A stretch of 23,476 nucleotides of DNA from a virus: IMG/VR virus record IMGVR_UViG_3300020172_005183, positions 1 to 23,476 of that record; one strand, written 5' to 3'. How positions within the stretch are numbered: the stretch's first letter is position 1; each line of letters starts with the position of its first letter. A model generated the notes under the pieces. The model was not told where the DNA came from. It saw nothing but the letters and a program-made list of their open reading frames with translations, and did not search any database. This document shows, one piece after another, positions 2,967 to 19,312 of the stretch. Position numbers and translations under genes: made by a program.

Positions 2967-3854
2967 TTAGTAAAAGCCACCAATTTCATAACCCATAGCT
3001 ACCTTTTCTTCATCGGTTAGCTTGAACGCGTCAACCAAGTATTGAGAATAGTGTTTTACACCATCAATAATTTGCATCTGGTTAGAAACTCTTCCCGCAG
3101 TAGACAAGACACGCTCTTCTTCCATTCTTGCCCACTCTTCAGGTCCATGTTGTTTTTCACTTGACAACCAGTCCTCAGAGCCTTCATTTTTATATTTCAC
3201 AAAAGACCTAATTAAAAATTTTGTTCCAGATTTAACCATCCCTACAGCGTGGAAGTATGGTTCGTCGCCTGGGTAAATCGGGGAGCCAGATGGGAATACG
3301 ACTATGTCACCTGCTTCGGGTTTGTAATCCAAAGAATCGCCAGTCATTGTTGTGAACCTAACTTCACCCCCTTCATAGTCGTCATTTATGTAAACAGTGC
3401 ATGTCAGGAGAAAATTTTCAAATCGGCTAGCGTGCTGGCTAACAATATAGTCCGTATGGTATTGCATTACCCTACCCCCACCAGTGTCAATACCTTCGTA
3501 GTAAGCAGCAAAGCTGACCCGAGATATGATTGAATCTTCGGGAAGCTGAACATCGTTGGCATCTATATAATGAGAGAAAGCACAGCTAATAGCGTTTTGC
3601 AGTCTTTCCTCCATTGACCTTTCGCAATCGTACATGTCATTAGACATATCTGTTGCTTCCGGATTGAACTGTTTTGGTTCGCAAAGCTGTCCAAAACCGT
3701 ACCAATCCATCCATTTACCAAAATAGTATTTACCTTCAGATGAGCCTAATGACTTCCGAAGTGTTGAATGAATGTGGTTTTTGTCCGGGAGAAGACCCTG
3801 ATAAACAAAAATTTTTGGGTATATTTCTTTATACGAAAGATTAATGTTTATCAT
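2967..3854 (-). CDS. 2OG-Fe(II) oxygenase, prolyl-4-hydroxylase-like (lone minus-strand copy)
   Basis: A 295-residue protein with the double-stranded beta-helix signature of the prolyl-4-hydroxylase-like family. Metal ligands: H133 and D135 (YHTDY) and H202 (YFHAV), with K212 ten residues later at the usual 2OG position. NDDYEGGEVRF (158-167) and AGDIVVFPSG (181-190) are typical core strands of the family. It would use O2 and 2-oxoglutarate to hydroxylate an unidentified substrate. It is the only oxygenase in the window on the minus strand, ends 13 bases from the convergent GPx-like gene, and is divergent from the SGNH-like gene at 3934. No clear Shine-Dalgarno precedes the ATG. The C-terminal 60 residues (WARMEEERV.., TDEEKVAMGYEIGGFY) lie outside the catalytic core and are unrecognised. 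Confidence 0.85.
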   Translation of the reverse strand: MININLSYKEIYPKIFVYQGLLPDKNHIHSTLRKSLGSSEGKYYFGKWMDWYGFGQLCEPKQFNPEATDMSNDMYDCERSMEERLQNAISCAFSHYIDANDVQLPEDSIISRVSFAAYYEGIDTGGGRVMQYHTDYIVSQHASRFENFLLTCTVYINDDYEGGEVRFTTMTGDSLDYKPEAGDIVVFPSGSPIYPGDEPYFHAVGMVKSGTKFLIRSFVKYKNEGSEDWLSSEKQHGPEEWARMEEERVLSTAGRVSNQMQIIDGVKHYSQYLVDAFKLTDEEKVAMGYEIGGFY

Positions 3855-3933
3855 GCCCAGATTGTACCACTGCTATTCTCCGTACATCCTCTTGATTCTT
3901 TTCGATATAACAATTTTGGGCTACTATTCGAAT
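3855..3933. other. Divergent intergenic region, likely to hold promoters for both directions
   Basis: A 79-base gap between the minus-strand oxygenase start (3854) and the preferred plus-strand start at 3934, the only clearly divergent junction in the window. The plus frame is open through it from 3844, but that extension would overlap the minus-strand gene and gives a hydrophobic, compositionally odd N-terminus. On the minus strand TACAAT (complement of 3862-3867) resembles a -10 box, and on the plus strand TATAAC is at 3906-3911. No convincing -35 is correctly spaced for either, so promoter assignment is tentative. Confidence 0.35.
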
Positions 3934-5001
3934 ATGCAGAATGGCAAAAGTGAAAATCAAACTGACCCATTTATTTTTTCATTTGACAAAAACTTAGAAA
4001 ATCCATTCTCAATTATTTATGAAGAATCATTTGAACCGCAAGATAGTGAAAAATGCTACACAGGGGCAAATCTTTGTGGGATTACTAATTTTGATGGTTC
4101 TGCTGCTCCTTGGGGAAGAAGACCAATAGAGAAAAATCCGGAATTTGTGTGCATAGGCTGTTCCTGTACGGTATCTATGGGGCTAATTGAAGAATATTCT
4201 TGGCCATCAATAATTAGAGAATTTACTGGGGCAAAAGTTAATAACTTGTCTTCGCCTGGGTCTGGTATTGATTTTCTATCTTCATTTGCAATTGATTCTT
4301 TTGCTCAATTTGGAAAGCCAAAAACAGTATTTGCACTGTTTCCAGACATATACAGAATGTGGACTGTGAATTCGTGTGAGCATATATCTAATGGTAAAAA
4401 TCACACAATACACGCATCATGGCACACAGATGTTTGCGAGTACTTTATGGATGTTCGTCATTCTGCTATGGCTACAGAAGACAAGCCAGTGACGACAAAA
4501 CCATTTTCATATACTGGTTACGACGGTCGGAAAACTACTATTTCCGTTGATGCTACTATCTTCAATAGCTTTACTACACTTGAAATGTTGATGCATTACT
4601 GCCGCATGAATAACATGGAGTTTAAATTTTGCTCATGGGATGATGAAACAAATAAAATATTTTCCAATATTGGCTACTACGATTCTAATTATCAACCAGC
4701 AAAAGTATTGCATTTTGAAAATGAAAAAATATCAAAAAAACAATTAAAAAATAGTAAAACAAATATGGACCAAATTTGGTGGGAAGAAGAAATAAACATA
4801 AGCGACGTGTACCAGATGCCATGGAGAAGACTAGGTTTTGGCGATGAATGTGAACACTTGCCGCAAACTGAATATCAAAAAAAATGTTGGAGTGTTGCTA
4901 GTGATATTGGCAATCATCCGGGCATTCATGACCAAATACATTTTGCAGAACACTTTCTTGGCATGAAGGTAGACAACGATTTCTTAGGGAAACTACCATG
5001 A
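3934..5001 (+). CDS. SGNH-hydrolase-like protein, copy 1
   Basis: A 355-residue protein from the ATG at 3934; the frame extends to 3844 but would overlap the divergent gene. I read a GDSL/SGNH-type pattern. Block I is CIGCSCTVSMGL (73-84) with Ser77 as the likely nucleophile, then WPSIIREFTG and VNNLSSPGSG (102-111) with the oxyanion-type glycine. Block V-like is HPGIHDQIHFAE (328-339) with D333 and H336 in the DxxH arrangement. SGNH enzymes are esterases, lipases or O-acyltransferases acting on small acyl or sugar esters. It is clearly paralogous to the gene at 5752-6834: same block I and V, VNN, PD.YR.W and YSWPSI. Its stop overlaps the next oxygenase start (ATGA), so the two are probably co-translated. 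The function is inferred from these blocks only. Confidence 0.6.
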   Translation: MQNGKSENQTDPFIFSFDKNLENPFSIIYEESFEPQDSEKCYTGANLCGITNFDGSAAPWGRRPIEKNPEFVCIGCSCTVSMGLIEEYSWPSIIREFTGAKVNNLSSPGSGIDFLSSFAIDSFAQFGKPKTVFALFPDIYRMWTVNSCEHISNGKNHTIHASWHTDVCEYFMDVRHSAMATEDKPVTTKPFSYTGYDGRKTTISVDATIFNSFTTLEMLMHYCRMNNMEFKFCSWDDETNKIFSNIGYYDSNYQPAKVLHFENEKISKKQLKNSKTNMDQIWWEEEINISDVYQMPWRRLGFGDECEHLPQTEYQKKCWSVASDIGNHPGIHDQIHFAEHFLGMKVDNDFLGKLP

Positions 5002-5765
5002 GCAAAAAAAGAATTGAATACGGAACTAGGCCGTCGCAACTTTTCGTAATGGAAAACTTTCTAAACGAAGAAGAACTTTCTGTATTCAATAATTTACTTC
5101 TTGTTGATTCAGATTGGGTAAAGCAGGAAAAATATTACCCAGATGTGAGGCAGCACTATACTCTGAGCAATGAAAAAGGAGAAAACCAGGATTTACTAAG
5201 AATAGATAAGGAAGTCAAAGAGAGAATTCACAAAGAGCTAGAAAAATATTATGCTCAATTACTTTTTGTGCCAATAAATCTTTCGTACAACAGGTGGATG
5301 ATTGGCGATGAAATCAAGTCGCACAACGATAGTGGACATACATCTGGTGAGTTGATAATCGAAGAAAGAGGAAATGAAAATTTTCCAGTTCCGATATCAG
5401 AGCATTTTAATGATTATGCATCAGTTGTTTACCTTACGGACGACTATGAAGGCGGAGAGTTTTTTTTCAACTATCTTGGTTACAAGATTAAGCCATCTGC
5501 TGGTGATGTAATTACTTTTCCAGCAAATCATTTTTATACACATGGAGTAACTCAGCTAGTTTCCGGAGAGCGGTTAACCATGACATTATTTTGGCCCGGG
5601 GTAAGGTCCGTGTGCCTAAGCCTAGTGCCGGAGCTTTATACCGACTGGTGGAAGCGTGTATCCAATCCAGAAAGTATTTGGCGCGTTATGCCTCAAAAGT
5701 ACATTGACTCTGTCGATAAAGCAATGCTTCCAGAAAGAATGTGGTTTGACGATGAAGAAGATTAA
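4998..5765 (+). CDS. 2OG-Fe(II) oxygenase, prolyl-4-hydroxylase-like
   Basis: A 255-residue protein starting inside the stop codon of the SGNH-like gene. Metal ligands are H109 and D111 (KSHNDSG) and H182 (YTHGV), with R192 ten residues on (SGERLTMTLFW) for 2OG binding. YLTDDYEGGEFFF (145-157) and KPSAGDVITFPAN (165-177) are typical core strands. The N-terminus (LFVMENFLNEEELSVFNNLL) matches the usual opening helix of this family. A C-terminal tail of about 55 residues, rich in Trp and acidic residues, follows the core. It is sandwiched between two paralogous SGNH-like genes with overlaps on both sides, suggesting a hydroxyl created here is a substrate for, or is protected by, the acyl-type enzymes (inference). 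Confidence 0.88.
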   Translation: MSKKRIEYGTRPSQLFVMENFLNEEELSVFNNLLLVDSDWVKQEKYYPDVRQHYTLSNEKGENQDLLRIDKEVKERIHKELEKYYAQLLFVPINLSYNRWMIGDEIKSHNDSGHTSGELIIEERGNENFPVPISEHFNDYASVVYLTDDYEGGEFFFNYLGYKIKPSAGDVITFPANHFYTHGVTQLVSGERLTMTLFWPGVRSVCLSLVPELYTDWWKRVSNPESIWRVMPQKYIDSVDKAMLPERMWFDDEED

Positions 5766-6834
5766 ACAACATCTACTTAGCCCTGATGAGCTATACTCGC
5801 TTTCTTTTTATTCAGATAGAGCTTCCGATAGCGGATTTTTTTCAATTTACAATACGGCTGAAAATAATTCACCAAAAAAAATAGAGAAACAAGATAGCAA
5901 TGTTCCTTTTACTGGGGTTACCGATAATGGCCTCGTAGACTTCAGCGGAGAGCAAGCACCATATTCAAGAAATAACTTCATAGAGGACCCTTACTACGCA
6001 TGTATTGGGTGCTCGTATACTGTTTCAAAAGGACTTCCAGTAAATTACTCGTGGCCCTCAATCGTTGAGCTGTTTACTGGTAAAACAGTAAATAATTATT
6101 CTGAGCTAGGTGCTGGTTACAGAAAAATATCTTCATTTACGATGGATGCTTCCGCGCGCTATGGTTCACCAAAACATGTTTTAGCACTAATGCCAGACCC
6201 TTATAGGTTCTGGTTTCCTTACTCATGGATTCGAAATGTAGAAATACATTCTTTCAGCTACGAGGGGGACGTAGAGGACAGTGATAATTCTAGTATTGTT
6301 TTTGGTCAGGCATTTTGGGAAGCAACAGTTCAATCCTATACCCATAATCACATGGCGTCTGGACAGGAGCCCCTAAGGCTCGTTGACCATAAGGGGAGAA
6401 AGCATGTTGTCTCTCCAGAACTTGCTGTTTTTGCGAGCATGTCATCTTTATATTCTCTTAAAAGAATATTTGAATCAATGTCTGTGCCATTTGACTGCAT
6501 GACGTGGTTTCATCCCGATAACCCACTTGCTATTGATTCTCATGACTTATTCAACATAAAGAGGAAACCGCAGTTACGGCTTGAAACATCAACTAGTCAT
6601 TTTCAGAAATTCATAGACATGGAACGAGAGATAGGCGGAGATGGTCGGTGGCGCAGACATGGGGCCCCATCCCGCTTGGAAACTTGTGACCACGTGCCGT
6701 TAACTGAGAATCAAACCAAGTTCTGGTATAAATCAATAAACAGCATGCACCCCGGACTGCACGACCAAATACATTATGCCGAACAGCTTCTTGGAGTAGA
6801 AATACCATGTTCAATACTTGAGGAGATGCCGTAA
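5752..6834 (+). CDS. SGNH-hydrolase-like protein, copy 2
   Basis: A 360-residue protein from the ATG at 5752, overlapping the previous gene by 14 bases; the frame extends to 5656 but that part lies in the oxygenase coding sequence. Block I is CIGCSYTVSKGL (84-95) with Ser88, followed by YSWPSIVELFTG, VNNYSELGAGY (113-123) and LMPDPYRFW (146-154). Block V-like is HPGLHDQIHYAE (333-344) with D338 and H341. It has the same length and order of motifs as the copy at 3934-5001 but is well diverged in the middle, so the duplication is not recent. The expected role is an esterase or O-acyltransferase; the substrate is unknown. Its stop overlaps the start of a small basic ORF (TAATG). Confidence 0.6.
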   Translation: MKKIKQHLLSPDELYSLSFYSDRASDSGFFSIYNTAENNSPKKIEKQDSNVPFTGVTDNGLVDFSGEQAPYSRNNFIEDPYYACIGCSYTVSKGLPVNYSWPSIVELFTGKTVNNYSELGAGYRKISSFTMDASARYGSPKHVLALMPDPYRFWFPYSWIRNVEIHSFSYEGDVEDSDNSSIVFGQAFWEATVQSYTHNHMASGQEPLRLVDHKGRKHVVSPELAVFASMSSLYSLKRIFESMSVPFDCMTWFHPDNPLAIDSHDLFNIKRKPQLRLETSTSHFQKFIDMEREIGGDGRWRRHGAPSRLETCDHVPLTENQTKFWYKSINSMHPGLHDQIHYAEQLLGVEIPCSILEEMP

Positions 6835-6972: not shown

Positions 6973-8427
6973 ATGTCATCTAATATTTTATGGGGCATAA
7001 ATGACTCATCGCATGATGCCGCGCTAAGTGTTTTAGTAGACGGTAAAATATGTTTTGCTGCTCATGCGGAACGCTACAACAAGGTGAAGAATTCATTTCA
7101 CATATCTAAAGATTTGATTGATGATGCTATGTCATACGGGCATCCCTCTGCAATTGCCTATTTTGAGAAAAGGTTAAAGAAAAGAATTAGACGCATACTT
7201 TTTGGCGGCATCAATGGTGACTACGGAAATCTTTATACAGATAAATTTCCTGAGTTATCAACTGTCCCTGAACATCAATTCTCACACCACTATTCGCACG
7301 CTGCGGCTGGTTATTATACGTCACAATTTGATGCTGCAACAATTGTCGTAATTGATGCGATTGGGGAGTTTGAGACAGCATCCATTTGGGAGGCACGCGG
7401 AGAGTCAATCAAACGTATTTTTTCCTTAAAATATCCTGTTTCTTTTGGTCTTTTTTATAGTGCATTCACTCACTTGGTAGGGTTGGAGCCGGGCAAGGAA
7501 GAATACATACTGATGGGTATGTCAGCATTTGGGGACCCCCGTAAGTACGGGGAGCGAGTTGGTAGTTACTTCCCATCATTTGCTAATCAACCACATAACT
7601 TGCATCGAGGAGTGCCCAAATGGGGGGAGGTGTTCGACGATGATGACAAGTGTGATATTGCAGCAGCAACACAATCCGTGTATGAAAAAAGACTATTAGA
7701 ATTTATGAGATTTGCTAAAACTATTACATCATCTAATAATCTTGTATTCATGGGAGGGTGCGCCCTGAATTGCAAAGCCAACTCGCTTTTAATGGGTGAA
7801 TGGGGAAAAATCTGGATTATGCCCAATCCTGGAGATGCTGGTTCAAGCCTTGGGGCCGCACTTGCGCTTCATGGTGGACACGTGGAGTGGAATGGTCCGT
7901 ACTTGGGTAAAAACATCTCCCAGACATACCCAGTCGGTGAAATAATTAAAGAACTCCAGAACTCCGGCATTGTTGGAATAGCTTCAGGTAGTGCTGAATT
8001 TGGTCCTCGGGCTCTTGGGAATAGAAGCATCCTTGCAGACCCGCGAAACGCTCTTAATAAAAATATTGTAAATGAAATAAAAAAACGTGAAAAATTCCGT
8101 CCGTTTGCTCCGGTGATTATGGAGGAGTTCTCACATGAATGGTTCGATATGGATGGTTCATCACCGTATATGCAATATGCGGTAAGGTGCAAAAAACCGC
8201 ACCTAATTCCTGCTGTTGTTCATGCTGACGGAACTAGCCGAGTTCAGACCGTAAACAAGGAGCAGCATGCTGGACTGTATGGGGTGCTGGAGCGCTGGCA
8301 CTCCATTACCGGCATTCCCATACTACTTAATACCAGTTTAAATATAAAAAATCAGCCTTTACTTAACGACATGAAAGATGTTGAATTGTGGAGGCGTGAC
8401 AATCCTGACGTATGTCTGCTTACCTGA
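6973..8427 (+). CDS. Carbamoyltransferase, NodU/CmcH family
   Basis: A 484-residue protein with a good Shine-Dalgarno (GAGGA, 6964-6968) before ATG 6973. The N-terminal Kae1-like half has SSHDAALS (12-19), AERYNKVKNS (32-41), SHHYSHAAAGYY (104-115, with the His residues of the family's metal/active site), VVIDAIGE (125-132) and GGCALNCKAN (261-270). The YrdC-like C-terminal half has GSAEFGPRALGNRS (339-352), ADPR and REKFRPFAP (372-380). Family members use carbamoyl phosphate and ATP to form a carbamoyl-adenylate and transfer the carbamoyl group to a hydroxyl on a sugar, antibiotic or nucleoside. It is somewhat shorter than the usual 540-580 residues and stops soon after the GIPILLNTSLN motif. 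It sits between the SGNH/oxygenase group and a run of oxygenases, so an acceptor hydroxyl made by one of them is a reasonable inference. Confidence 0.9.
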   Translation: MSSNILWGINDSSHDAALSVLVDGKICFAAHAERYNKVKNSFHISKDLIDDAMSYGHPSAIAYFEKRLKKRIRRILFGGINGDYGNLYTDKFPELSTVPEHQFSHHYSHAAAGYYTSQFDAATIVVIDAIGEFETASIWEARGESIKRIFSLKYPVSFGLFYSAFTHLVGLEPGKEEYILMGMSAFGDPRKYGERVGSYFPSFANQPHNLHRGVPKWGEVFDDDDKCDIAAATQSVYEKRLLEFMRFAKTITSSNNLVFMGGCALNCKANSLLMGEWGKIWIMPNPGDAGSSLGAALALHGGHVEWNGPYLGKNISQTYPVGEIIKELQNSGIVGIASGSAEFGPRALGNRSILADPRNALNKNIVNEIKKREKFRPFAPVIMEEFSHEWFDMDGSSPYMQYAVRCKKPHLIPAVVHADGTSRVQTVNKEQHAGLYGVLERWHSITGIPILLNTSLNIKNQPLLNDMKDVELWRRDNPDVCLLT

Positions 8428-8472
8428 TGCTTTTGTTTGAAGTGCTTAACATCTTCCTGTAGCATTAGGGTC

Positions 8473-9114
8473 ATGAACAATATTGCTAATGAGCAATCAC
8501 TGGTTAAATCTGGACACTTTGGCTCTAGTTCTGACAATATATTAATAATTGAAAACTTTGTTGAGCAACAAGACTTAGAGACTATTAATAAATTTTTTCC
8601 GCTGATAAATGAGTGGGAGAACGAAAAAGAAGATGAGTTTAACGAAGATGGAATCTGCATATATGATGCCTCGTATTGGCGAGACAGGATGTGTAGTGGG
8701 GAAATACTGAAACGCATTTCCCCGGAAATTTTTAATTTAGTAGATAAATATGTCAACAAGATGGCTACTGCTATTAGTGCGAAGTATGACGTAATGGTTT
8801 CATGCCGACCCCCTGTTCTTATCAGGTGGCTTCCGGGAAACAGTCAGTCTCCGCATGCGGATAAACAGCTGAACGACGGAACCCCAAATCCATTTCCCAC
8901 GTACGACCTTAATTCCGTCATATATTGGAATGAAGCATTTACAGGTGGGCAGATTTATTACCCCCAGCATGACGTAGAGGTGAAGATAAGCTCAGGGATG
9001 GCAGTTGCGCATCCAGGAGATATCAACTATCTTCATGGAGTACGTGAGATAACGTCTGGCGAACGCTGGACAACGCCATCCTTTTATACAATCACTAAAA
9101 TAGGGAGACAATAA
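8473..9114 (+). CDS. 2OG-Fe(II) oxygenase, prolyl-4-hydroxylase-like
   Basis: A 213-residue protein from the first ATG; a TTG at 8437 would add 12 residues without support. A weak AGGG precedes the ATG closely. Metal ligands are H128 and D130 (SPHADKQ) and H188 (YLHGV), with R198 ten residues later (SGERWTTPSFY). IYWNEAFTGGQIYYP (150-164) and ISSGMAVAHPGD (172-183) are the usual core strands. It is close to the minimal size of a single-domain oxygenase of this family. It opens a run of seven genes with overlapping or nearly abutting ends (8473-14797). A 45-base gap separates it from the carbamoyltransferase. The TAA overlaps the next ATG (TAATG). Confidence 0.88.
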   Translation: MNNIANEQSLVKSGHFGSSSDNILIIENFVEQQDLETINKFFPLINEWENEKEDEFNEDGICIYDASYWRDRMCSGEILKRISPEIFNLVDKYVNKMATAISAKYDVMVSCRPPVLIRWLPGNSQSPHADKQLNDGTPNPFPTYDLNSVIYWNEAFTGGQIYYPQHDVEVKISSGMAVAHPGDINYLHGVREITSGERWTTPSFYTITKIGRQ

Positions 9115-9809
9115 TGGAAGTAGCTGGATATATTGGTCATGAAAATGCCGGAATAGTTTTATACAAAAACGTGTGGCCAAGTGATGCCAATTTTGTTGAA
9201 CGTCTTGAGGCAGTTTTAGAGGATAGTCAGCATTCGCGGTATAAGTGGAGCCCTGCAATGGTCGGGGACCAAGAAATTATGAAAGATTACCGTGACTGCT
9301 TTGATTTCAAAATGCGCCAAGGCGAGATGCCAATAGCGGAACCTGGGTTTGAAGAGTTATCATCTGTCTATTTGGAAGTTATGAGTGGTGTACGGGAATG
9401 CATGGAGCACTATTCTGGTTTATACAACTTGAAACTTGGATACGAAGAGGCAACCAACTTCGTTAAGTACGGAGTTGGTCAGCACTTCTCTGTGCATCCA
9501 GATTCTGGTTTTTCCTATAGTTGCGCCGTTTCCAGTATTGGCTACATAGCTGACGGTTATGAAGGTGGAGAGTACTTCATGCCATATCAACAGCTCAAGT
9601 TTTTCCCAGAAAAGGGAGACTTAATCATGCACCCATCTGACTTCATTTATGCACACTCATCAATGCCGGTAACAAAAGGTACAAAGTATTCGGTAGTGAC
9701 CATGTATGACTACAACGACAGAAATCACCAAACTGGTTCGTATGGTTTAAACGTTGTTTCTCAAGCATCCACACTTCCAAATGTTAGTGGTCAGGTAGTA
9801 ACGGCTTAA
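9114..9809 (+). CDS. 2OG-Fe(II) oxygenase, prolyl-4-hydroxylase-like
   Basis: A 231-residue protein whose ATG overlaps the previous TAA. Metal ligands are H128 and D130 (SVHPDSG) and H181 (YAHSSM), with K191 ten residues later (KGTKYSVV). ADGYEGGEYFMPYQ (146-159) and PEKGDLIMHPSD (165-176) fit the core. The 2OG-binding residue is Lys, as in animal and algal prolyl 4-hydroxylases, whereas most oxygenases in this window have Arg. About 30 residues beyond the core (YDYNDRNHQTGSYG..) are Ser/Thr/Val-rich and unassigned. Substrate unknown. The next gene starts at the base after its stop. Confidence 0.87.
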   Translation: MEVAGYIGHENAGIVLYKNVWPSDANFVERLEAVLEDSQHSRYKWSPAMVGDQEIMKDYRDCFDFKMRQGEMPIAEPGFEELSSVYLEVMSGVRECMEHYSGLYNLKLGYEEATNFVKYGVGQHFSVHPDSGFSYSCAVSSIGYIADGYEGGEYFMPYQQLKFFPEKGDLIMHPSDFIYAHSSMPVTKGTKYSVVTMYDYNDRNHQTGSYGLNVVSQASTLPNVSGQVVTA

Positions 9810-10535
9810 ATGGATGTAACCCTGACTAGAACACATCAAAACCCACCAGTTATTCGTCAATCCACCGTTAGAAGAGATTGGATGGATGACACATATAACA
9901 AGCATGCGTATAAGTGCCTCCCTATGACGGAAGCAAATATAGCCGGGTGGGAAATGGTTCTGCAACAGGACGTTGTTGTTCAATGGGATGGTGGTCTTTC
10001 TGTTCCACGAGTTCTTTCTGGTGAATTTGCAACATTCTCTACTGGTGGACAGGAATACCAGCGTGCAATAGTTATGCCCAGCATCGTTGGAATTATGTCA
10101 TTCACTACTGGATGGACATTTTCTACTCCAGAGAATGTGTGGACATGGATATCGGGTTCGCCAAACTATTTTGTAGACGGAGCTGTTCCTTTGTCTGCGA
10201 CTATTCCAAGCGACTGGTGGCCGGATGAGTTCAACATGAATTGGAAGATTACCAAAATTGGAGAACCAGTAACTTTTAGTGCTGGTATGCCATTCATGTT
10301 TTTTCAGTTTTACGATATTTCGACTATGCCATCGGTCAGGTTTAAAGTTGACAATTACTGGGACAAGCCAGAACTCATGGACAGTAGAGCTGCGTACGGT
10401 GCAGCAAAGATGAAAAAACTACACGATGAGCCATGGACTTGGATGGGTGGAATACGTAGCGGTTTGAATGAAAACGGAGAACGCATAGGACCACGCCATG
10501 AAGGCCATATTAAGCTTGAGGAACCAATTCAATGA
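9810..10535 (+). CDS. DUF6065-like protein
   Basis: A 241-residue protein beginning directly after the previous stop. From memory it matches the pattern of DUF6065: a start like THQNPPVIRQSTVRRDWMD (8-26), then HAYKCLPMTEANIAGWE (32-48), QWDGG (58-62), GIMSFTTGWTFSTPE (94-108) and FNMNWKITK (141-149), with the FSAGMPFMFFQFYD stretch (156-169). The family's biochemical role is, to my knowledge, unknown. It is rich in Trp, Pro and aromatic residues and has no signal or membrane segment. It lies between oxygenases with no gaps (its TGA overlaps the next ATG), so it is probably a partner in the same process. The family call should be tested by a profile search. Confidence 0.6.
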   Translation: MDVTLTRTHQNPPVIRQSTVRRDWMDDTYNKHAYKCLPMTEANIAGWEMVLQQDVVVQWDGGLSVPRVLSGEFATFSTGGQEYQRAIVMPSIVGIMSFTTGWTFSTPENVWTWISGSPNYFVDGAVPLSATIPSDWWPDEFNMNWKITKIGEPVTFSAGMPFMFFQFYDISTMPSVRFKVDNYWDKPELMDSRAAYGAAKMKKLHDEPWTWMGGIRSGLNENGERIGPRHEGHIKLEEPIQ

Positions 10536-12118
10536 AGAAGCTAAAGGGTGGAATAGCCGCAGGCTTGCGTCTTGGGAATCTTGGATTTAAGGTTAGGGGA
10601 GTCAGTGCTGCACAAATCATTGAAGATTCTGACTATTTTGCCGAAATATTAATACGAAATAAGATGATTGGGTTCAAGGATGTGAACCCGACAAATGACG
10701 AGTTCGTTAAGATAATGCAGAATATATATAGAGGAGACAATGATTACTCCGCTCTTCGCCCTGGTCTACTGACAGACCAGCAACATCAAGGAAATAAAAA
10801 CACTCAAGTAGATGATGTTGAGTGGTTTATAAATTCTCAATGGCATATGGACAATCCATTTTTAGAAGAAGTACCTTCATACACTGGGTTGAGAATGGAC
10901 AAGTTTACGTGCTCTCCAAATGTTGGGCAAACCCACATATACAGTCTTGTTAATGCCTATAGAGACTGCCCAGAGCATATTAAGCCATATCTGGAAGATG
11001 CGTATTTCGTTAATGGGACAGGTTTCGTTGGTGATGACTTTAGTTCGCTCCCATTGCATCCAGCGCTACGCACGCATCCGGCCACTGGTGAAACAATGCT
11101 GTTTTGGTCTGGTCATGATATGCGGCTACCGAATGGCGAAGAGCAAGCATGGTTTAGCGACTTAAAGGGATATATGCAAAATCAACTGCTGTCTCCTGAG
11201 TTGCGTTATTCGTGGGAGTGGCGTCAGGGAGACTTGGTTATTTGGGATAACAGAGCTGTATTGCATTCATTTTCCCCAGGTTGGTCACATGACCAAAGAA
11301 TCTTTACGAGATGCGAAGTTGGAAAGGAAAAACCAACTTATGAGCCAAATCGAAAAATAATAGTTAATGAAGATTTTGGTGATACGTGGCGCAAAGAAGG
11401 CGTTGAAAAAGACATAACAGTCGGGCCAAATCCAGACCACATACCACTTGTGTTCACAAAAGGAATATATGCACTCTCGGAGTATGCAGACTTATTTCAA
11501 AAAGTAACTTTATTCGTATATTCCGATGACGGAACAATTGGTGAAGATGTAAATGCTTTTAAAAACGAAATCAATAATGATGATTTTAGGGTAGTAACTG
11601 TTGTGCCGTGGGCACCAGCAACTGAACCCTCATTTACATATGACAAGATGAATAGATTTTCTAAGGCTTATTTAGATAACCAGCAAGTAGTCGGGCAAAA
11701 GTTTTTGTTCACACAAAATGGTGACCTGGAGAGAGCTTTTGCTGCAGATGAAGATTTATTCAGAACAGAGCCGTATGAAGATGGCAGGCCAGCTCCGCTT
11801 CCGCTTGTTAGGACCCTTCTGGAAATGCACCCAGACATGCGCCACGCAGGGCATGCTTGGCACTACCCGTGTTGGTTTCCGCATCAACGGAACTTGAAGT
11901 TTCGTCCGTGGGATTGGCATAATCTTTCATTTTTTGAATATGAACAATTTAATGGGGGACCCCCTCCTTTTGATTTTCTTGTTCAGTTTGCTGTGGATAC
12001 GGTTTATGGGTGCTTCAATCACATCGATACCGATAGTGAACGCCGACGCATTATTGAAGCGATAATTGACTACATGCAGTACATGTTGGAGCTGGGGGAG
12101 CATGAGCGCGATAGGTGA
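10532..12118 (+). CDS. TauD/TfdA-like 2OG-Fe(II) dioxygenase with ~230-residue C-terminal extension
   Basis: A 528-residue protein overlapping DUF6065 by ATGA. Residues 1-280 are TauD/TfdA-like: H105 and D107 (QWHMDN), the hallmark HPALRTHPATGE (176-187), GDLVIWDNRAVLHS (233-246) with H245, then R256 and R260 at +11 and +15. That spacing matches E. coli TauD (H255, R266, R270). TauD relatives hydroxylate small molecules such as taurine, amino acids and alkyl sulfonates. Residues from about 300 on are a separate region I do not recognise: it begins HIPLVFTKGIYALSEYADLF, includes VTLFVYSDDG, and holds a block rich in His, Trp and Pro (HAGHAWHYPCWFPHQRN). It is nearly twice the usual length of about 280-300, so this is probably a two-domain fusion. 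Confidence 0.85.
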   Translation: MKKLKGGIAAGLRLGNLGFKVRGVSAAQIIEDSDYFAEILIRNKMIGFKDVNPTNDEFVKIMQNIYRGDNDYSALRPGLLTDQQHQGNKNTQVDDVEWFINSQWHMDNPFLEEVPSYTGLRMDKFTCSPNVGQTHIYSLVNAYRDCPEHIKPYLEDAYFVNGTGFVGDDFSSLPLHPALRTHPATGETMLFWSGHDMRLPNGEEQAWFSDLKGYMQNQLLSPELRYSWEWRQGDLVIWDNRAVLHSFSPGWSHDQRIFTRCEVGKEKPTYEPNRKIIVNEDFGDTWRKEGVEKDITVGPNPDHIPLVFTKGIYALSEYADLFQKVTLFVYSDDGTIGEDVNAFKNEINNDDFRVVTVVPWAPATEPSFTYDKMNRFSKAYLDNQQVVGQKFLFTQNGDLERAFAADEDLFRTEPYEDGRPAPLPLVRTLLEMHPDMRHAGHAWHYPCWFPHQRNLKFRPWDWHNLSFFEYEQFNGGPPPFDFLVQFAVDTVYGCFNHIDTDSERRRIIEAIIDYMQYMLELGEHERDR

Positions 12119-12911
12119 ACATCTTGGAGGTGGTGTTGTTATTTACCGCAACGCCTTTAACCTCGACTGGGAGTGGATGCGAAATTTTTGTCATTCGACA
12201 TTGCTAGAAGAGCGCAATACCATGTATTCACCTGGCGTAGACCCAATAACTGGTGAAGATGGATACATAAATAAAAGTAATTACTTTTTTAAAAAAGATT
12301 CTATTGAAGTAATGCCGTGGAGAGGTAGCCTCATTCATCAAAACGGCGATACTAAAGTCCAGGAGACGATTGACTATCTGGAGAGGGCTAAGGATGAATG
12401 CCTACAGGACTATTTGCATAAATTTCCACTTGCTGGAAAATGTATTTGGTGGCGCATCCGTGGACACATAGTTGCCTACCCAAAGGGTTCATTTCTCGGA
12501 CTACATGCGGACATTCAGACAGAGTACGAATTTGGGAAGCCTCACCCCAAGGACCAATTAGCAACCAGAAATATTGTGTCCGTTGTTGCTTATATGAACG
12601 ACTGTGTTGATAGCTCAGACGAGCTGGATGGTACAAATTTCACTGGCGGGCTTCATTACTTTAACTACTTAGACATAACCATAAAGCCTCAAAAGGGTTC
12701 AATAATATTTTTTCCGTCAAACTACGTTGCTGCGCATGAGGTGCAACCCGTAACAGATGGAATGAGATACTCGTATTTGGGGTGGTACTGCCAGGGAACA
12801 CCGAATTCAGAAGTTCTAGAAAACGTCGTAGACCCAGTCGCCCAGCCGGAAGCAGCTCGAAAGTCATCAAACGTATATATGCCAACCGGCTATAAGTTAA
12901 CGGAGTCGTAG
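12102..12911 (+). CDS. 2OG-Fe(II) oxygenase (WW-RGH subgroup)
   Basis: A 269-residue protein from the ATG at 12102, overlapping the previous gene by 17 bases; GGGGGAG lies just before the ATG. Metal ligands are H135 and D137 (GLHADIQ) and H212 (AAHEV), with R222 ten residues on (DGMRYSYLGWY). It shares IWWRIRGHIVAYPKG (115-129) and IIFFPSNYVAAHEV (201-214) with the oxygenase at 17383-18357 (IWWKARGHVLKYLPG, VVFFPANYVGSHAV) and, more weakly, with the C-terminal domain of the next gene. These three form a subgroup. The HAD-to-strand loop is longer than in the other copies (EYEFGKPHPKDQ). Substrate unknown. The TAG overlaps the next GTG start (TAGTG). Confidence 0.87.
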   Translation: MSAIGEHLGGGVVIYRNAFNLDWEWMRNFCHSTLLEERNTMYSPGVDPITGEDGYINKSNYFFKKDSIEVMPWRGSLIHQNGDTKVQETIDYLERAKDECLQDYLHKFPLAGKCIWWRIRGHIVAYPKGSFLGLHADIQTEYEFGKPHPKDQLATRNIVSVVAYMNDCVDSSDELDGTNFTGGLHYFNYLDITIKPQKGSIIFFPSNYVAAHEVQPVTDGMRYSYLGWYCQGTPNSEVLENVVDPVAQPEAARKSSNVYMPTGYKLTES

Positions 12912-14107
12912 TGTCAATAAAAGTAGGAATTCTCAATACGGGTAAAATGGGGGCTTCGTTAGCGAGGGCGGCAAAAGATAATGGGTGTGAAGTTTTCTGG
13001 GCATCAGAGGGTCGCTCTACTGAAAGCAAGAGCAGGGCACATGAGCTTGCGCTTCATGATGCTGTAACCATAGAAAATATGTGCTCAGTCTGCGATGTGA
13101 TTATTTCAATATGCATGGGTTCCGGTGTGATGCCAAATGCTTTGAACGTTGTTTCTGGTGGATTTAATGGTACGTATGTTGACGCAAACCACATAGGTGA
13201 TGTTTCTCACGAAAATCACTTAAAAAATATAATCGAAGATGCTGGAATTAGTTACGTAGATGCATCGATATATGGCTGGCCGTACCCTCACGAACAAAAT
13301 CCGGATTCTGAAAGAACTCTTTATCTGTCTGGAGGTAAAGCAAATGACGTTAAATCAATATTTCACGGATATATCTTTGATTGTGAAGTAACGGAAATGT
13401 CTGCAAAAGGGGTCAAACGCCAGAGAGAGATAGCTGACAGAGCAGACTGCGCACCACACATTGACCACGGTTATGGGATAGTTGAGTTCCCTAGAATAAT
13501 GCAAATAGAGGATATCTTTATTGATTCCTACATGCAGCGCAGGGAGATTTCTGAGCCACAGGATTATTACGTTGACGAAGAGGGTTTTTATGTAAACCGT
13601 GGCGGCTATAGGTTTACGAAAGAGCACGTAGATAAAGCACCAAGAAGATATTTGAATTTAACGCCTGATGGATGTCCGCAGGAAGATATTGATTTTCACG
13701 CAAAAATCGAAGCCGAGATATCTAAGTGTATAAACGCCTACAGAGGGATATACCCCGAAGTTTATGACTGCGTCAGATGGAGGACGGATGCTCATATTGC
13801 CGCATATCCATCCGGAGCTGGCATGGGTGTACATCATGATAATTCAATCGGAAGTGCCGGAAAGAGCGAAAATCCAATATTCAATGTTCTTTCGCTATCA
13901 TTAGTGCTAAGCGACAGGTGTGAAGGCGGGGAGTTAGAGATGAAATATATAAATAAAGCATTTAAACCACAAAAAGGCACTGTAATCATTTATCCAGCAA
14001 GTTTTCTTGGTAGCCATGCGGTATCAAAAGTAGAATCTGGACTTAGAATTTCATATCTAGAATTCTTTGGACACGGCACCGTTAGTGGCCAGACTAAGCC
14101 GATTTGA
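12911..14107 (+). CDS. Fusion: NAD(P)-binding Rossmann (beta-hydroxyacid dehydrogenase-type) domain plus 2OG-Fe(II) oxygenase
   Basis: A 398-residue protein with a GTG start inside the previous stop. Residues 3-150 look like the N-terminal domain of 6-phosphogluconate/3-hydroxyisobutyrate dehydrogenases: VGILNTGKMGASLARAA (5-21, with G6, G11, G14), then CDVIISICMGSG (61-72), GTYVDANHIG (87-96) and DASIYGWPYP (117-126). The helical C-terminal domain and catalytic lysine of those enzymes are not visible. Residues 250-398 form an oxygenase core: H308 and D310 (GVHHDNS), H369 (GSHAV) and R379 (SGLRISYLEF). About 100 linker residues lie between. The oxygenase half belongs with the 12102 and 17383 copies. 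It could couple an oxidoreduction to hydroxylation, or the Rossmann part could only bind a ligand. No frameshift is needed: it is one continuous frame. Confidence 0.8.
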   Translation: MSIKVGILNTGKMGASLARAAKDNGCEVFWASEGRSTESKSRAHELALHDAVTIENMCSVCDVIISICMGSGVMPNALNVVSGGFNGTYVDANHIGDVSHENHLKNIIEDAGISYVDASIYGWPYPHEQNPDSERTLYLSGGKANDVKSIFHGYIFDCEVTEMSAKGVKRQREIADRADCAPHIDHGYGIVEFPRIMQIEDIFIDSYMQRREISEPQDYYVDEEGFYVNRGGYRFTKEHVDKAPRRYLNLTPDGCPQEDIDFHAKIEAEISKCINAYRGIYPEVYDCVRWRTDAHIAAYPSGAGMGVHHDNSIGSAGKSENPIFNVLSLSLVLSDRCEGGELEMKYINKAFKPQKGTVIIYPASFLGSHAVSKVESGLRISYLEFFGHGTVSGQTKPI

Positions 14108-14119
14108 TAAATTATATAT

Positions 14120-14797
14120 ATGAAAGTTATAGACGAATTTCTCAGTGACGAAATATGCAATTCAATAGTTAATGACAAATCATTTTTCCCAATGTCCATG
14201 GGGAGCGATGAACGAATTGCTTCAGAAATTAACTCATACCATAGTGAGCAGGCTGACTGCTTTGCTCCGTATATGTTCTGGGATGGTTGGGGTAGGTCTG
14301 AGCCAAAATCACTAAAACAGTTAGTCGTGAAGCATATTTGGGAAAATAACTTGCCGTTTCCAGTTGACGAGCTTTGTGGTTTTGAATATTGGACTAGAAC
14401 ATTTAATCAGCGTCAATTTCTTGGTCCACATGTAGACGAAGATACATTTAGGTACGCAAAGACTAAAATTTTGACAGGTCCGCAGATTGGCTGCGTTTAT
14501 TACGGGCCAGAAACAGATACTGGCAATGGTGGGTTTCTGGAGATATATCCTCACAAAATAGATGACTATACAGAAAACGCTCTTGAATCAAGTCATGTTG
14601 GTGAATTACTCGTTGACATATCAGAGCGCGAACGTATCTCATGTAAGCCCAATAGATTGATAATTTTTGATGCTGGACACGTGCTTCACGGTACAACTCC
14701 AATGATTTCAGGCCAAAGAAATGTAATGATTGTAAATGTTTGGCACCGAGACCTCCCCCCAACAGCGCTTGACACTGGTGATTTTTACTACGAATAG
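14120..14797 (+). CDS. 2OG-Fe(II) oxygenase
   Basis: A 225-residue protein, ATG 12 bases after the previous stop in an AT-rich gap with no obvious Shine-Dalgarno. Metal ligands are H104 and D106 (GPHVDED) and H190 (VLHGT), with R200 ten residues later (SGQRNVMIVNVWH). KPNRLIIFDAGH (176-187) replaces the usual AGDxxxFP strand, and the spacing between HxD and the distal His is longer (84 residues), with a loop GPETDTGNGGFLEIYP (129-144). This is a more distant member than the other single-domain copies. It ends the run of closely packed genes that began at 8473. Confidence 0.85.
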   Translation: MKVIDEFLSDEICNSIVNDKSFFPMSMGSDERIASEINSYHSEQADCFAPYMFWDGWGRSEPKSLKQLVVKHIWENNLPFPVDELCGFEYWTRTFNQRQFLGPHVDEDTFRYAKTKILTGPQIGCVYYGPETDTGNGGFLEIYPHKIDDYTENALESSHVGELLVDISERERISCKPNRLIIFDAGHVLHGTTPMISGQRNVMIVNVWHRDLPPTALDTGDFYYE

Positions 14798-16258: not shown

Positions 16259-16590
16259 CTATTAGACATTCTTGGGAAACACAAAACAATACCTACTCAG
16301 TGGACTCGCACATTGAATACGTCGAGCATCAAATAGCTTCAATTCTTTACATTTCCGGCCTTGATGGGAAATTAATTGAGTCATACGAGATTGAAGAAAT
16401 GCTTTCAGCAGTCAGGGACACCTTTAAGGTGACAAGAGAGTCAATTGTTGTTGACAATATTAAATCTGGTATAAGGCCAGCGTACGAATTTTTTATGACC
16501 AAGAACTCGTCAAAGCTTACTCTTGTTCTTAGGCGTAATATGAGATGGTTAAAAATAGCAAAGTATGCAAAGGGTATACAAAATGTCTAG
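16255..16590 (+). CDS. Unknown protein, 111 residues
   Basis: GTG start overlapping the previous TGA. It is an acidic helical first half (HIEYVEHQIASILYISG, EIEEMLSAVRDTF) with a basic C-terminus (LVLRRNMRWLKIAKYAKG). No motif is recognised. It overlaps the methyltransferase-like gene by 8 bases when that gene starts at 16583, which suggests coupled translation. Confidence 0.5.
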   Translation: MTIRHSWETQNNTYSVDSHIEYVEHQIASILYISGLDGKLIESYEIEEMLSAVRDTFKVTRESIVVDNIKSGIRPAYEFFMTKNSSKLTLVLRRNMRWLKIAKYAKGIQNV

Positions 16591-17353
16591 TGGGTGGGCG
16601 ACGCGAGCAAGAATTGCAAGAAGACTGTCCAGAACTGGACAGGACGAACTCCTACTCTCTGAGTTAGGGGAACTTTCTGATTACGCCTCAAAAATAAAAC
16701 AATTTCATGAAGAATCCTCTGTCGACAGGCGAACAATCGCCATTGGCGCAGACATAGAAAGTCATTGGTATGAGGCAATAATCAACCCAAACGAAGAGTT
16801 TGCTCATCTCATGTGGCAAAACATTGCCCAAATTAAAATGTGGTACGACCTTCTCTTAAGCGGTGGGACTGAACAAGACCCAAAGACTGTTCTTACCTAT
16901 ATGCAGCTTCCTTGTAATTTTATTATGGAGCTAATTTCTGATAGAACAAAAGAATTTACATTCGTTAATAACTTAGACCTTTTTTATTTTGAAAATTTTT
17001 ATCTCACAGAAAATGTTTTAGATACGCATCCTGATATTAGATATTCAGCTGTAGATAATGTTGACATTATTTCAAAGCAAACAGAAAAACAGTATGACAT
17101 GGTTAGGGCAACGGGATTTGGTATCCATGGCATCTCTACCGAAATGCTTGCCGGATTAATGGACTCTGTCAAAATAGGGGGCTCATTCATACTCTCCGAC
17201 GCGTCAGACTACGGAATGCTTTACACTGGGGCTGATGCTGAAATAACTTCTACTTTTTGGGATTATGGCAAATACATATGCCAGCGTGAGGATTTTATTT
17301 CCTATCACCTCCCATATGATGTAGGCTTGGTCGTAGCAAAAAGAATTGCTTAA
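16583..17353 (+). CDS. Methyltransferase-like Rossmann protein, degenerate motif I
   Basis: A 256-residue protein from the ATG at 16583, with AAGGG 10 bases upstream; an ATG 18 bases earlier is also possible. The second half follows the end of a class I SAM-dependent methyltransferase fold: a strand/acidic stretch NVDIISKQ (159-166), EKQYDMVRATG (168-178), a helix EMLAGLMDSV, then KIGGSFILSDASDYG (197-211, the usual GG-x-hydrophobic strand), and a final pair of strands ending DVGLVVAKR. The glycine-rich motif I is not visible; FVNNLDLFYFENFY occupies roughly that position. It may be a divergent methyltransferase or an inactive relative. A basic N-terminal helix (RARIARRLSR) and a linker precede the domain. 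Confidence 0.5.
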   Translation: MSSGWATRARIARRLSRTGQDELLLSELGELSDYASKIKQFHEESSVDRRTIAIGADIESHWYEAIINPNEEFAHLMWQNIAQIKMWYDLLLSGGTEQDPKTVLTYMQLPCNFIMELISDRTKEFTFVNNLDLFYFENFYLTENVLDTHPDIRYSAVDNVDIISKQTEKQYDMVRATGFGIHGISTEMLAGLMDSVKIGGSFILSDASDYGMLYTGADAEITSTFWDYGKYICQREDFISYHLPYDVGLVVAKRIA

Positions 17354-17382: not shown

Positions 17383-18357
17383 GTGGAAGCGACGCGCAAA
17401 CACCTAGAAATACCAAAGCTTGGCTCTACCGGATGCAGTGAAGTCAATGCTATTCAGTACATAAATCACGGCAGTGGAATAATGCAGTTCAAAAATGTTC
17501 TGGATATTCCGCAGGACAAAATACTTCCATATGTTGACTCATATGCGTACGTACCGAGCTGTGGATTGGAGATTTACGAGGAAGACGGTATTAAGAAGGC
17601 TAGGGATTTCGAGGGAAATGAGCAGCCGTATTCAAATCTGCTCTCACTTCCTTTACGACTTGGCGGTTTTGGCATGCCTGGACCGGTCGAGGATTATACC
17701 GAATCGGATGTAGTTGAGTTTTTTAATAACTGCGAAAGAGCTCTATACCTTTGCCTGATGAGATACATTGACATTCACCCAATGATTCTTAACACGATTT
17801 GGTGGAAGGCAAGAGGCCACGTACTCAAGTACCTTCCCGGTGCTTCACTTGGCATGCACAATGATAACGACACGAACTTTAGGGTGATTGACGGGCAAAG
17901 GTACCTATCGCAGCGCGAAGTTGCTATGTACCAGGTAGTCAATGCGATTATCTATTTTAATGATTCATATGATGGTGGTGAATTTAGATTCCCATATGCC
18001 AATGTAACTATTAAGCCAGATGCTGGAGATGTGGTCTTTTTCCCTGCAAACTATGTCGGCTCGCATGCTGTTGCCCCAATTACCAGTGGAGAAAGGTATA
18101 CATATCTTGCTCAGTTTGGGCATGGTGTTGCAAAGAACGACGAAATACGCGAAGCACAAGAAAGTGTTGATTGGTTGCCTCCCGTGTATTTGCCTTTTAT
18201 TTATCAAGATGCAGTAAAGTTTTCGGAATCTGGATTCTCCCATTACGACGATTCAGCGGAAGTTGCTCTTGGTTTGCACAATAACAGCGTTATCTCTCAA
18301 CAAAGGTCTGTAGAGGGAGCTCCAGAGGGGACGAAGCTAGAATATGAAGAGAGTTAA
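17383..18357 (+). CDS. 2OG-Fe(II) oxygenase (WW-RGH subgroup)
   Basis: A 324-residue protein with a GTG start; AGAGG lies 6 bases upstream, and the ATG at 17378 is out of frame. Metal ligands are H159 and D161 (GMHNDND) and H228 (GSHAV), with R238 ten residues later (SGERYTYLAQFGHG). FNDSYDGGEFRFP (192-204) and KPDAGDVVFFPAN (211-223) are the core strands. It shares IWWKARGHVLKYLPG (139-153) with the oxygenase at 12102 and more weakly with the fusion at 12911, although it lies 3.3 kb beyond them. It has an extra N-terminal region (1-100) and a tail of about 75 residues (VDWLPPVYLP..) outside the core. It overlaps the next gene by 14 bases. Confidence 0.88.
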   Translation: MEATRKHLEIPKLGSTGCSEVNAIQYINHGSGIMQFKNVLDIPQDKILPYVDSYAYVPSCGLEIYEEDGIKKARDFEGNEQPYSNLLSLPLRLGGFGMPGPVEDYTESDVVEFFNNCERALYLCLMRYIDIHPMILNTIWWKARGHVLKYLPGASLGMHNDNDTNFRVIDGQRYLSQREVAMYQVVNAIIYFNDSYDGGEFRFPYANVTIKPDAGDVVFFPANYVGSHAVAPITSGERYTYLAQFGHGVAKNDEIREAQESVDWLPPVYLPFIYQDAVKFSESGFSHYDDSAEVALGLHNNSVISQQRSVEGAPEGTKLEYEES

Positions 18358-19312
18358 ATCTGCTGAACAATATGTTTTTGATTTTAAAGGAATCGAAGAC
18401 ATAAGAAACAACTTTAGTGCTTATGCGGATGCATTCAAAACCCATGGGATTATTTGTTTCCGTGGCGCATTCCTTGACATATACAAGGGCACAGAGGTCC
18501 TTGCTGCTGTGTCAAAGGGCCTTAATTGGACTCCTGTATACAAGAGTCAGGACGGGAAGGTAGCAGATTGGAGGTATACGCAAAATTACGACGATAGGGC
18601 AAATACTTTTGTTACGTCAGAAGTGCAGCAAGGATTAATAAACCCATGGCATCTTGAGGGAATGTACAAGAAGCACACAATGCACGCAGTCGGATGGAGT
18701 ATGCGAAATTTCAAATGCGATAGCTCTGTCGGGCAAACCGGATTTATTGATGCATCCGAACTTGTTTCTATTATGCCTGCAGACATGTACGCATTTATGA
18801 AAAAAGCAAAGCTTATACATTACCCAATATTTGCACGCAAGGTACCAGAACCTTACCAGCCAATGCTCGACCATTTTGCGGCAGAGATGGATGCCATGCA
18901 TGAAAAAATTTGGTCAGTTGATGGCGATACGGAAATGTCAAGCAATGCGCATGATGCAATACAAAATCACCCAACTTTTGGGTATGAGGTTCTTAGATTG
19001 TGTCCATGTTGCGAGCGATGGGGAAATCAGCATCTGCTATTTTCCGTCGATGGGCAAAAACCGACAGAAAAAGATAATCAATTTTTTAAAACAATACAGG
19101 ATTGGCTGAAAGAAATTATCACTGACGAGTCCTTAGCTTGGTACCATGAATATCAAGAAGGTGATTTTGTAATCCCTGATTTATTTATAATGATTCACTC
19201 CGCAAAAGGAGGGTTTGCTCCTGGGGAACGGGAATTTGATGGAATGTGGTGTTTCCAAAAAAAGGTAGACTACGATGAAAATAAAGCCATACCAATAAGG
19301 CAGGAAAAATAA
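18344..19312 (+). CDS. TauD / clavaminate-synthase-like 2OG-Fe(II) dioxygenase with HxE
   Basis: A 322-residue protein. The family layout is visible: THGIICFRGAF (33-43), NPWHLEG (100-106) with H103 and E105, FKCDSSVGQTGFID (123-136), EGDFVIPDLFIMIHS (272-286) with H285, and R296 eleven residues later. Glu in place of Asp is known in clavaminate synthase, AsnO and VioC, so the triad can still be functional. Those relatives hydroxylate free or carrier-bound amino acids. Unusual here is LRLCPCCERWGNQH (217-230), a CxCC cluster in the position of the HPxTG loop of TauD relatives. It starts inside the preceding oxygenase. Confidence 0.75.
   Translation: MKRVKSAEQYVFDFKGIEDIRNNFSAYADAFKTHGIICFRGAFLDIYKGTEVLAAVSKGLNWTPVYKSQDGKVADWRYTQNYDDRANTFVTSEVQQGLINPWHLEGMYKKHTMHAVGWSMRNFKCDSSVGQTGFIDASELVSIMPADMYAFMKKAKLIHYPIFARKVPEPYQPMLDHFAAEMDAMHEKIWSVDGDTEMSSNAHDAIQNHPTFGYEVLRLCPCCERWGNQHLLFSVDGQKPTEKDNQFFKTIQDWLKEIITDESLAWYHEYQEGDFVIPDLFIMIHSAKGGFAPGEREFDGMWCFQKKVDYDENKAIPIRQEK

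Follow-up and report, generated by a model that had tools for sequence, protein, structure and literature searches.

What would a virus do with a protein that joins half of a dehydrogenase to a hydroxylase? The question is raised by a gene in the virus record IMGVR_UViG_3300020172_005183 of IMG/VR, a stretch of 23,476 bases that was analysed whole and is called the window here. The gene occupies 12911-14107 on the plus strand (as do all features given below, unless stated otherwise) and is a single open frame of 398 amino acids with a GTG start; the opposite strand of this stretch is rich in stops. A first-pass annotation had read it as a Rossmann dehydrogenase domain fused to a 2-oxoglutarate-Fe(II) (2OG-Fe(II)) oxygenase, an architecture not known to it as described, and supposed that the protein might either oxidise an alcohol and hydroxylate the same substrate, or use the Rossmann half to bind a nucleotide-linked substrate. 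We confirm that the fusion is real, and we give a probability of a little under 0.6 to the reading that it is an enzyme of a phage cassette modifying a protein of xFPP repeats (where x is Tyr, Phe or His), which is probably part of the virion.

The reality of the join rests on its recurrence. A query with the single sequence, for which only exact peptide words were scanned, found no relatives in viral contigs or genomes; these were recovered through an alignment with plasmid DUF1932 proteins, two viral scans yielding 26 and then 45 loci. The viral set consists of 44 of the 45 scanned loci plus the window, all with the Rossmann domain, and forms 31 clusters at 95% identity. Both domains lie in one frame in 10 of the 45 records, or 7 of the 31 clusters: the window, L014, L017-L019, L041/L043, L042, L044 and L045, with L017 and L044 ending at a contig edge past the junction. 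Because the same fusion recurs in this way, a sequencing error or chance joining of frames is ruled out. Bearing on whether two proteins might be made from the one gene, the sole in-frame start near the junction is an ATG at residue 163, which is Ile in L014. Most other viral records have the two domains as separate, directly adjoining genes, with stop/start overlaps such as TAATG, TGATG and GTGA, and since the two halves are abutting genes in these viruses, it is well supported that they act in one pathway. In two records (L067, L068) a related oxygenase immediately precedes the Rossmann gene and the downstream one is missing, L071/L072 show no oxygenase within the available stretch, L039 breaks off within the Rossmann gene, and the oxygenase frame of L070 is short.

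The genome collection gave 145 confirmed candidates, of which the best 80 were examined. Seventy-nine of these encode DUF1932-like proteins with 54-170 residues beyond the Rossmann domain (two below 111, at 54 and 85, are cut by contig ends) and have no matching oxygenase in the locus, and the remaining one, L073, has a cassette of the viral type on a virus contig in a gammaproteobacterial bin, with 7 residues past the Rossmann domain. No dehydrogenase-oxygenase fusion was found among these best 80 of 145, and a limited search of openly licensed literature found no description of the fusion, of the xFPP repeat or of DUF6065, a family represented in the cassette; the impression that the architecture had not been described is thus supported. 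It is already deposited in databases, unnoticed: UniProt A0A6J5NCI1, from an uncultured Caudovirales phage, has 398 amino acids, is 74% identical and is named 'Oxoglutarate/iron-dependent dioxygenase', a name that omits the Rossmann half.

In a tree of 56 Rossmann domains, the 31 viral rows and 25 of 79 cellular rows picked for spread, the viral and cellular sequences part at 100/99. All seven fused rows share a single branch (100/98), next to a branch of split genes at 81/71, with other split branches deeper, and the fused or split state needs a single change among the viruses; the long branches L071, L035, L046 and L045 are unsure. The simplest reading of these sequences would be one fusion event, in which an ancestor with split genes lost the stop/start overlap once. 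In the same tree L074, from a bin titled Bordetella parapertussis, is placed with a Bryobacterales bin, which makes that title doubtful. Among the plasmid relatives, the DUF1932 oxidoreductase gene of Streptomyces plasmids (L006, L007, L013) has genes for a HAD hydrolase, a guanylate kinase and an AAA ATPase as neighbours.

Is the N-terminal half a complete domain? Pfam gives sub-threshold matches only (2-Hacid_dh_C at 1.6e-4, NAD_binding_2 at 9e-4), tblastn matches this half to plasmid DUF1932-type oxidoreductases dependent on nicotinamide adenine dinucleotide (phosphate), NAD(P), with E down to 6e-13, and a profile search of solved structures finds PDB 1i36 (MTH1747) at 2e-18. The whole-protein model has a mean pLDDT (predicted local distance difference test) of 87.9 and a pTM (predicted template modelling score) of 0.63, so that the model is reliable for the single domains but not for how they sit relative to each other. 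Residues 1-180 of the model match 1i36 with Z 20.9 (root-mean-square deviation, rmsd, 4.3; 205 aligned) and 3-hydroxyisobutyrate dehydrogenases with Z about 20 (5y8h: Z 20.4, rmsd 2.2, 168 aligned). The deposited model of the 74% relative agrees over the whole length (template modelling score 0.89); it is also a prediction, and we draw no mechanism from it. By these models the N-terminal half is predicted to be a complete Rossmann dinucleotide-binding domain of the DUF1932/beta-hydroxyacid-dehydrogenase type (residues 1-160, 12911-13390), with the motif G6-IL-N9-T10-G11-K-M13-G14 and R35-S36. It is followed by a helix (residues 165-178, 13403-13444) that, from the model and alignments, would be the start of the family's inter-domain helix, with K169 in the catalytic-lysine column.

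Residues were counted over 31 viral and 79 cellular aligned rows. G11, M13 and G14 occur in every row of both groups, and R35, S36 and N93 in all 31 viral rows. Position 9, the first Gly of GxGxxG, is His or Asn in 79/79 cellular and 27/31 viral rows (Ser or Gln in the other viral ones), so that the canonical motif is absent from viral and cellular rows alike. A GRS motif suits NADP in this superfamily, and R35-S36 in all viral rows is suggestive, though only suggestive, of NAD(P)(H) binding. The lysine of the K169 column is catalytic in the beta-hydroxyacid dehydrogenase superfamily; the column holds Lys in 26, Arg in 4 and a gap in 1 of the viral rows, against Lys in 78 and a gap in 1 of the cellular ones. 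Its placing, also obtained from a second alignment and from profile alignment to 1i36 and two further structures, depends on a short aligned stretch, and a small early alignment put the lysine elsewhere. The C-terminal all-alpha domain of the DUF1932 family is absent from all viral Rossmann proteins, the split ones stopping just past the inter-domain helix. Since this domain was tested for and is absent, the fusion falls short of full membership in the DUF1932 dehydrogenases.

The C-terminal half (residues 183-398, 13457-14104) matches Pfam 2OG-FeII_Oxy_3 with 36.4 bits against a cut-off of 27. In 14 aligned rows H308 and D310, predicted with H369 to bind iron, are invariant, and H369 and R379, the putative 2OG ligand, are nearly so. 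These four residues and G6, G11 and G14 had been named correctly in the first-pass annotation, whose joining of a Rossmann and an oxygenase half in one frame stands on the domain searches, fold and recurrence alike. Modelled alone, the oxygenase domain has the double-stranded beta-helix fold (pLDDT 85.5, pTM 0.82). Its nearest folds are those of collagen, algal, bacterial and HIF prolyl hydroxylases and of PKHD enzymes: algal prolyl 4-hydroxylase 3gze (Z 16.1, rmsd 3.6, 178 aligned), viral collagen prolyl hydroxylase (vCPH) 5c5t (Z 16.1, rmsd 3.5, 165 aligned), PKHD enzyme 3dkq (Z 15.5, rmsd 3.3, 160 aligned) and HIF PHD2 (Z about 15). By sequence the top solved structure is again 3dkq (Sbal_3634), at 3e-10. 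Both folds of the fusion are thus predicted, with the presumptive iron and 2OG residues intact, and its oxygenase half is modelled as prolyl-hydroxylase-like; the substrate does not follow from a shared fold.

What, then, is the substrate? The neighbourhood points to a protein, the xFPP repeat protein at 1614-2066, over the nucleotide-linked small substrate that had been considered. This small protein has a PASTA-like N-terminal part (sub-threshold) and a C-terminal [Y/F/H]FPP array of 15 tandem units (1875-2054; x is His in 8, Phe in 6 and Tyr in 1) made up of 9 different 12-mers. The units differ in synonymous codons, all four Pro and both Phe codons being used, so it is the protein sequence of the array that is kept. 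In 27 of the 31 clusters and in L073 the cassette is preceded by an xFPP array, L213, L208 and L052 representing the contigs of L014, L041 and L025. Of the four clusters without one, L033 and L039 start at the first oxygenase or no more than 0.1 kb from it; L070 is without most of the cassette, and L071 has its DUF6065 gene elsewhere. A collagen-like substrate is rejected: the nearby repeat is xFPP, and the frames scanned for Gly-X-Y gave two short runs only (L070, G001), none in the window. Among the xFPP proteins with a stop in the locus, 22 of 67 end in FK or FKG (including L171, L188, L208 and L213), and many show, by eye, fibronectin-like stretches ahead of the array.

The tie between repeat and oxygenases was then approached from the repeat side, with a degenerate DNA pattern for four xFPP units, holding no oxygenase, scanned against viral contigs. 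It found at least 120 stretches; 80 loci were listed, and all linkage counts are among these, with a repeat frame in 70 of the 80. Forty have at least 3 kb downstream, and there at least one oxygenase follows in 34, at least two in 31 and a DUF6065 gene in 29; upstream of the repeat, at least two oxygenase frames occur in 1 of 29 loci. With contigs shared with the Rossmann set left out, at least two downstream oxygenases remain in 29 of 38, and the first oxygenase lies a median of 462 bases beyond the stop of the repeat gene. For a (GPP)n control (repeat frame in 66 of 80) the counts were 0/37 downstream and 0/36 upstream. Counted anywhere in loci of at least 6 kb, oxygenase frames numbered 207 for xFPP (644 kb), 4 for GPP (674 kb) and 0 for an FPFP control (641 kb), whose repeat was in an open frame in only 38 of 80 loci. 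In G001, G002 and G004, 6 of 7, 6 of 7 and 7 of 9 Pfam oxygenase matches (19 of 23) lie no more than 15 kb downstream of the array. The xFPP repeat is thus linked, strongly and one-sidedly, to downstream 2OG oxygenase genes across viruses. Separately, L177, L190, L200, L204, L228 and L238 have xFPP arrays and no recognised oxygenase in the stretch, several of these arrays lying within much longer proteins.

This linkage bears on a role proposed for cyanophage 2OG-Fe(II) oxygenases, which share PHROG 61 with the fusion (match 2.6e-14) and, unlike it, have no Rossmann part, phage records covering at most 30% of the fusion at about 25-32% identity. One report describes many copies of such genes per phage genome, 24 in the phage concerned, and proposes a role in host metabolism (PMC9602691). 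Reprogramming of host nitrogen or energy metabolism via 2-oxoglutarate levels would not lead one to expect a link with a repeat gene, a constant gene order or fusion to a Rossmann domain, and we hold it to be the least probable account of this cassette.

The cassette itself follows a structural or tail-fibre-like gene open at the window edge (1-1602; PHROG 697 structural protein at 7e-47 and several tail-protein matches). Beyond the repeat gene come a glutathione-peroxidase-like gene (2069-2953; Pfam GSHPx 9e-7), present in this place in many representatives, 2OG-Fe(II) oxygenases at 2967-3854 (minus strand; Pfam 2OG-FeII_Oxy_3 2e-9) and 4998-5765 (Pfam 8.5e-8), and a NodU-like carbamoyltransferase (6973-8427; Pfam, PHROG 1601). 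The core, of conserved order, comprises 2OG oxygenases at 8437-9114 (weak FlmC-type NCBIfam match 2.5e-4; Pfam 19.6 bits, below the cut-off of 27) and 9114-9809 (Pfam 2e-7), a DUF6065 protein (9810-10535; Pfam 2.6e-39), a TauD-type oxygenase with a second region (10532-12118; Pfam TauD 4e-26) and a 2OG oxygenase directly upstream of the fusion (12066-12911; Pfam 6e-12). After the fusion lie a 2OG oxygenase-like gene (14120-14797; Pfam 25.4 bits, cut-off 27), a conserved gene with no Pfam match (16565-17353) that in relatives is paired with the following one, a 2OG oxygenase conserved in relatives (17383-18357; Pfam 8e-11), and a TauD-type oxygenase (18344-19312; Pfam 5e-16). Across 8437-14797 neighbouring genes overlap or are at most 12 bases apart, and nearly all representatives keep the order structural, (repeat), oxygenase, oxygenase, DUF6065, TauD, oxygenase, Rossmann, oxygenase. 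A relative of 155,887 bases has ribonucleotide reductase, portal, terminase and tail-sheath genes, the last three only distantly like those of phage isolates, and its cassette follows tail/structural genes. Among the phage isolates searched DUF6065 has no match, 8473-9111 of the window one weak match and the whole window none; no host was found.

Two of these genes would suit a different product. NodU-like carbamoyltransferases and FlmC-family enzymes often act on sugars, and the cassette might make or decorate a sugar or small molecule, e.g. a glycan of the fibre or host surface, as the fusion's substrate, the repeat protein being a mere neighbour. The carbamoyltransferase is absent from most relatives, however, general scans of the window named no glycosyltransferase or sugar-nucleotide gene, and the linkage of repeat and oxygenases would be left unexplained, so that we consider this unlikely. 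Far less likely still is hypermodification of phage DNA by oxygenases like TET/JBP-type enzymes. Weak Tet_JBP matches exist (4998-5765 at 6.7e-5, with 22.6 bits against a cut-off of 34.9; the fusion at 0.077), but of 16 records, many being fragments, only 2 have a member of the C5-methyltransferase family and 1 a member of the thymidylate-synthase family, and the cassette sits with tail genes.

Some further features of the cassette may be recorded. The TauD protein of the window is a single frame of 528 residues, but in L032 and L034-L036 its two regions correspond to separate neighbouring genes, and from these sequences it is apparently a second gene fusion. The long proteins of 3844-5001 and 5656-6834 match nothing in Pfam or PHROG, have in common, by eye, the motifs CIGCS.TVS.GL and HPG.HDQIH, and look like paralogs. 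In L014 (11855-12711) the homolog of 17383-18357 is in two overlapping frames, through a frameshift or sequencing error. DUF6065 occurs in 2 of 274 genomes of one class, one of them a bin with a virus contig; on a Sinorhizobium medicae plasmid (L166) its gene lies about 10 bases after an autotransporter gene, a single case of little weight, and DUF6065 proteins may act on surface proteins.

How would the fusion act on the xFPP repeat protein? The fold resembling prolyl 4-hydroxylases and PKHD enzymes, the Pro-rich neighbour and the several paralogous oxygenases suggest position-specific hydroxylation. The oxygenase domain would first hydroxylate one residue of the repeat. In the second and least certain of four steps, the Rossmann domain would bind NADP(H) via R35-S36 and, with K169, oxidise or reduce the hydroxylated residue; from the chemistry of its superfamily, a beta-hydroxyacid dehydrogenase would suit a hydroxylase making a beta-hydroxy residue, giving a ketone or reduction back. 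The missing C-terminal domain would have to be replaced by the oxygenase domain, another cassette protein or the peptide itself, and the oxygenase domain or its bound substrate might close the active site in its place. Third, the remaining oxygenases would hydroxylate other positions to give a highly oxidised array, whose hydroxyls might, speculatively, be capped by the carbamoyltransferase that the window shares with two relatives; fourth, the modified product would become part of the virion. His in the repeat goes with the presence of a Rossmann gene (25/28, vs 3/26 where none is in the stretch), and that His is the target of the fusion is only an idea.

Several observations weigh against this scheme. 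Its substrate is a candidate assigned from gene linkage, and the linkage counts are not independent, since the records are related and phage kinship is uncorrected. Fewer than two downstream oxygenases follow the repeat in 9 of the 40 listed loci (L175, L177, L179, L186, L190, L204, L224, L228, L238), so that a cassette is not required in every case, and most repeat-found cassettes among the listed loci have no Rossmann gene within the available stretch, so the Rossmann step is not essential. The tie of His to the Rossmann gene has exceptions in both directions: L176, L192, L207 and L216 carry the gene but lack His in the repeat, and the repeats of L191, L242 and L244 contain His although the available stretch shows no Rossmann gene. 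The C-terminal domain, which binds substrate in the DUF1932 family, is missing from every viral form, and the catalytic-column lysine is Arg in 4 of 30 viral rows. These last two points and the many xFPP cassettes seen without a Rossmann gene would also suit another role for the Rossmann domain, with cassette and substrate unchanged: a catalytically dead module for NADP(H) binding or docking, by which the oxygenase is positioned or the redox state is sensed. The dinucleotide loop, R35-S36 and the lysine position are, however, kept across very divergent sequences, and a plain dock would not need the lysine; we regard a dead module as possible, at somewhat less than one chance in three.

The fusion differs from its known relatives on both sides. 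With DUF1932 oxidoreductases such as MTH1747 it shares a complete predicted Rossmann domain, the GIL[HN]PGxMG-type loop, the GRS motif and the lysine column; unlike them, the viral forms lack the C-terminal domain and in one clade have a 2OG oxygenase in its place. PKHD hydroxylases (3dkq, Sbal_3634; PiuC) match in sequence over the core only and have no Rossmann part. With vCPH of Paramecium bursaria Chlorella virus 1 and the algal, bacterial and HIF prolyl hydroxylases the fusion shares the fold, HxD...H and the Arg; vCPH, too, is a viral hydroxylase, and the phage fusion lies near a Pro-rich repeat protein. The phage system differs from vCPH in belonging to tailed phages, in a repeat of aromatic-Phe-Pro-Pro and not Gly-X-Y, in its many oxygenases per cassette and in its Rossmann partner, its activity being predicted. 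The working would be similar to that of prolyl-hydroxylase systems if the assignment holds, with repeat, number of oxygenases and Rossmann partner differing.

A wider and more doubtful extension is that many uncultured tailed phages make an oxidised aromatic/Pro-rich virion fibre or adhesive via a 2OG cassette, and that in one branch, in whose repeats His units are common, a beta-hydroxyacid dehydrogenase gave up its substrate-binding domain and acquired the hydroxylase, so that a single polypeptide would produce a beta-hydroxy residue, perhaps on those His units, and then oxidise it. Such a protein would be comparable in principle to the hydroxyproline- and 3,4-dihydroxyphenylalanine-rich adhesives of animals. 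Phage 2OG-Fe(II) oxygenases are numerous and have no shown substrates, and the linkage described here offers a concrete and testable candidate, an adjacent simple-sequence repeat protein. A dehydrogenase that is without half its fold and has gained a hydroxylase is a clear case of abutting pathway genes becoming one enzyme. If the proposal is true, the cassette would be, to our knowledge, a protein-modification system of tailed phages unlike those known.

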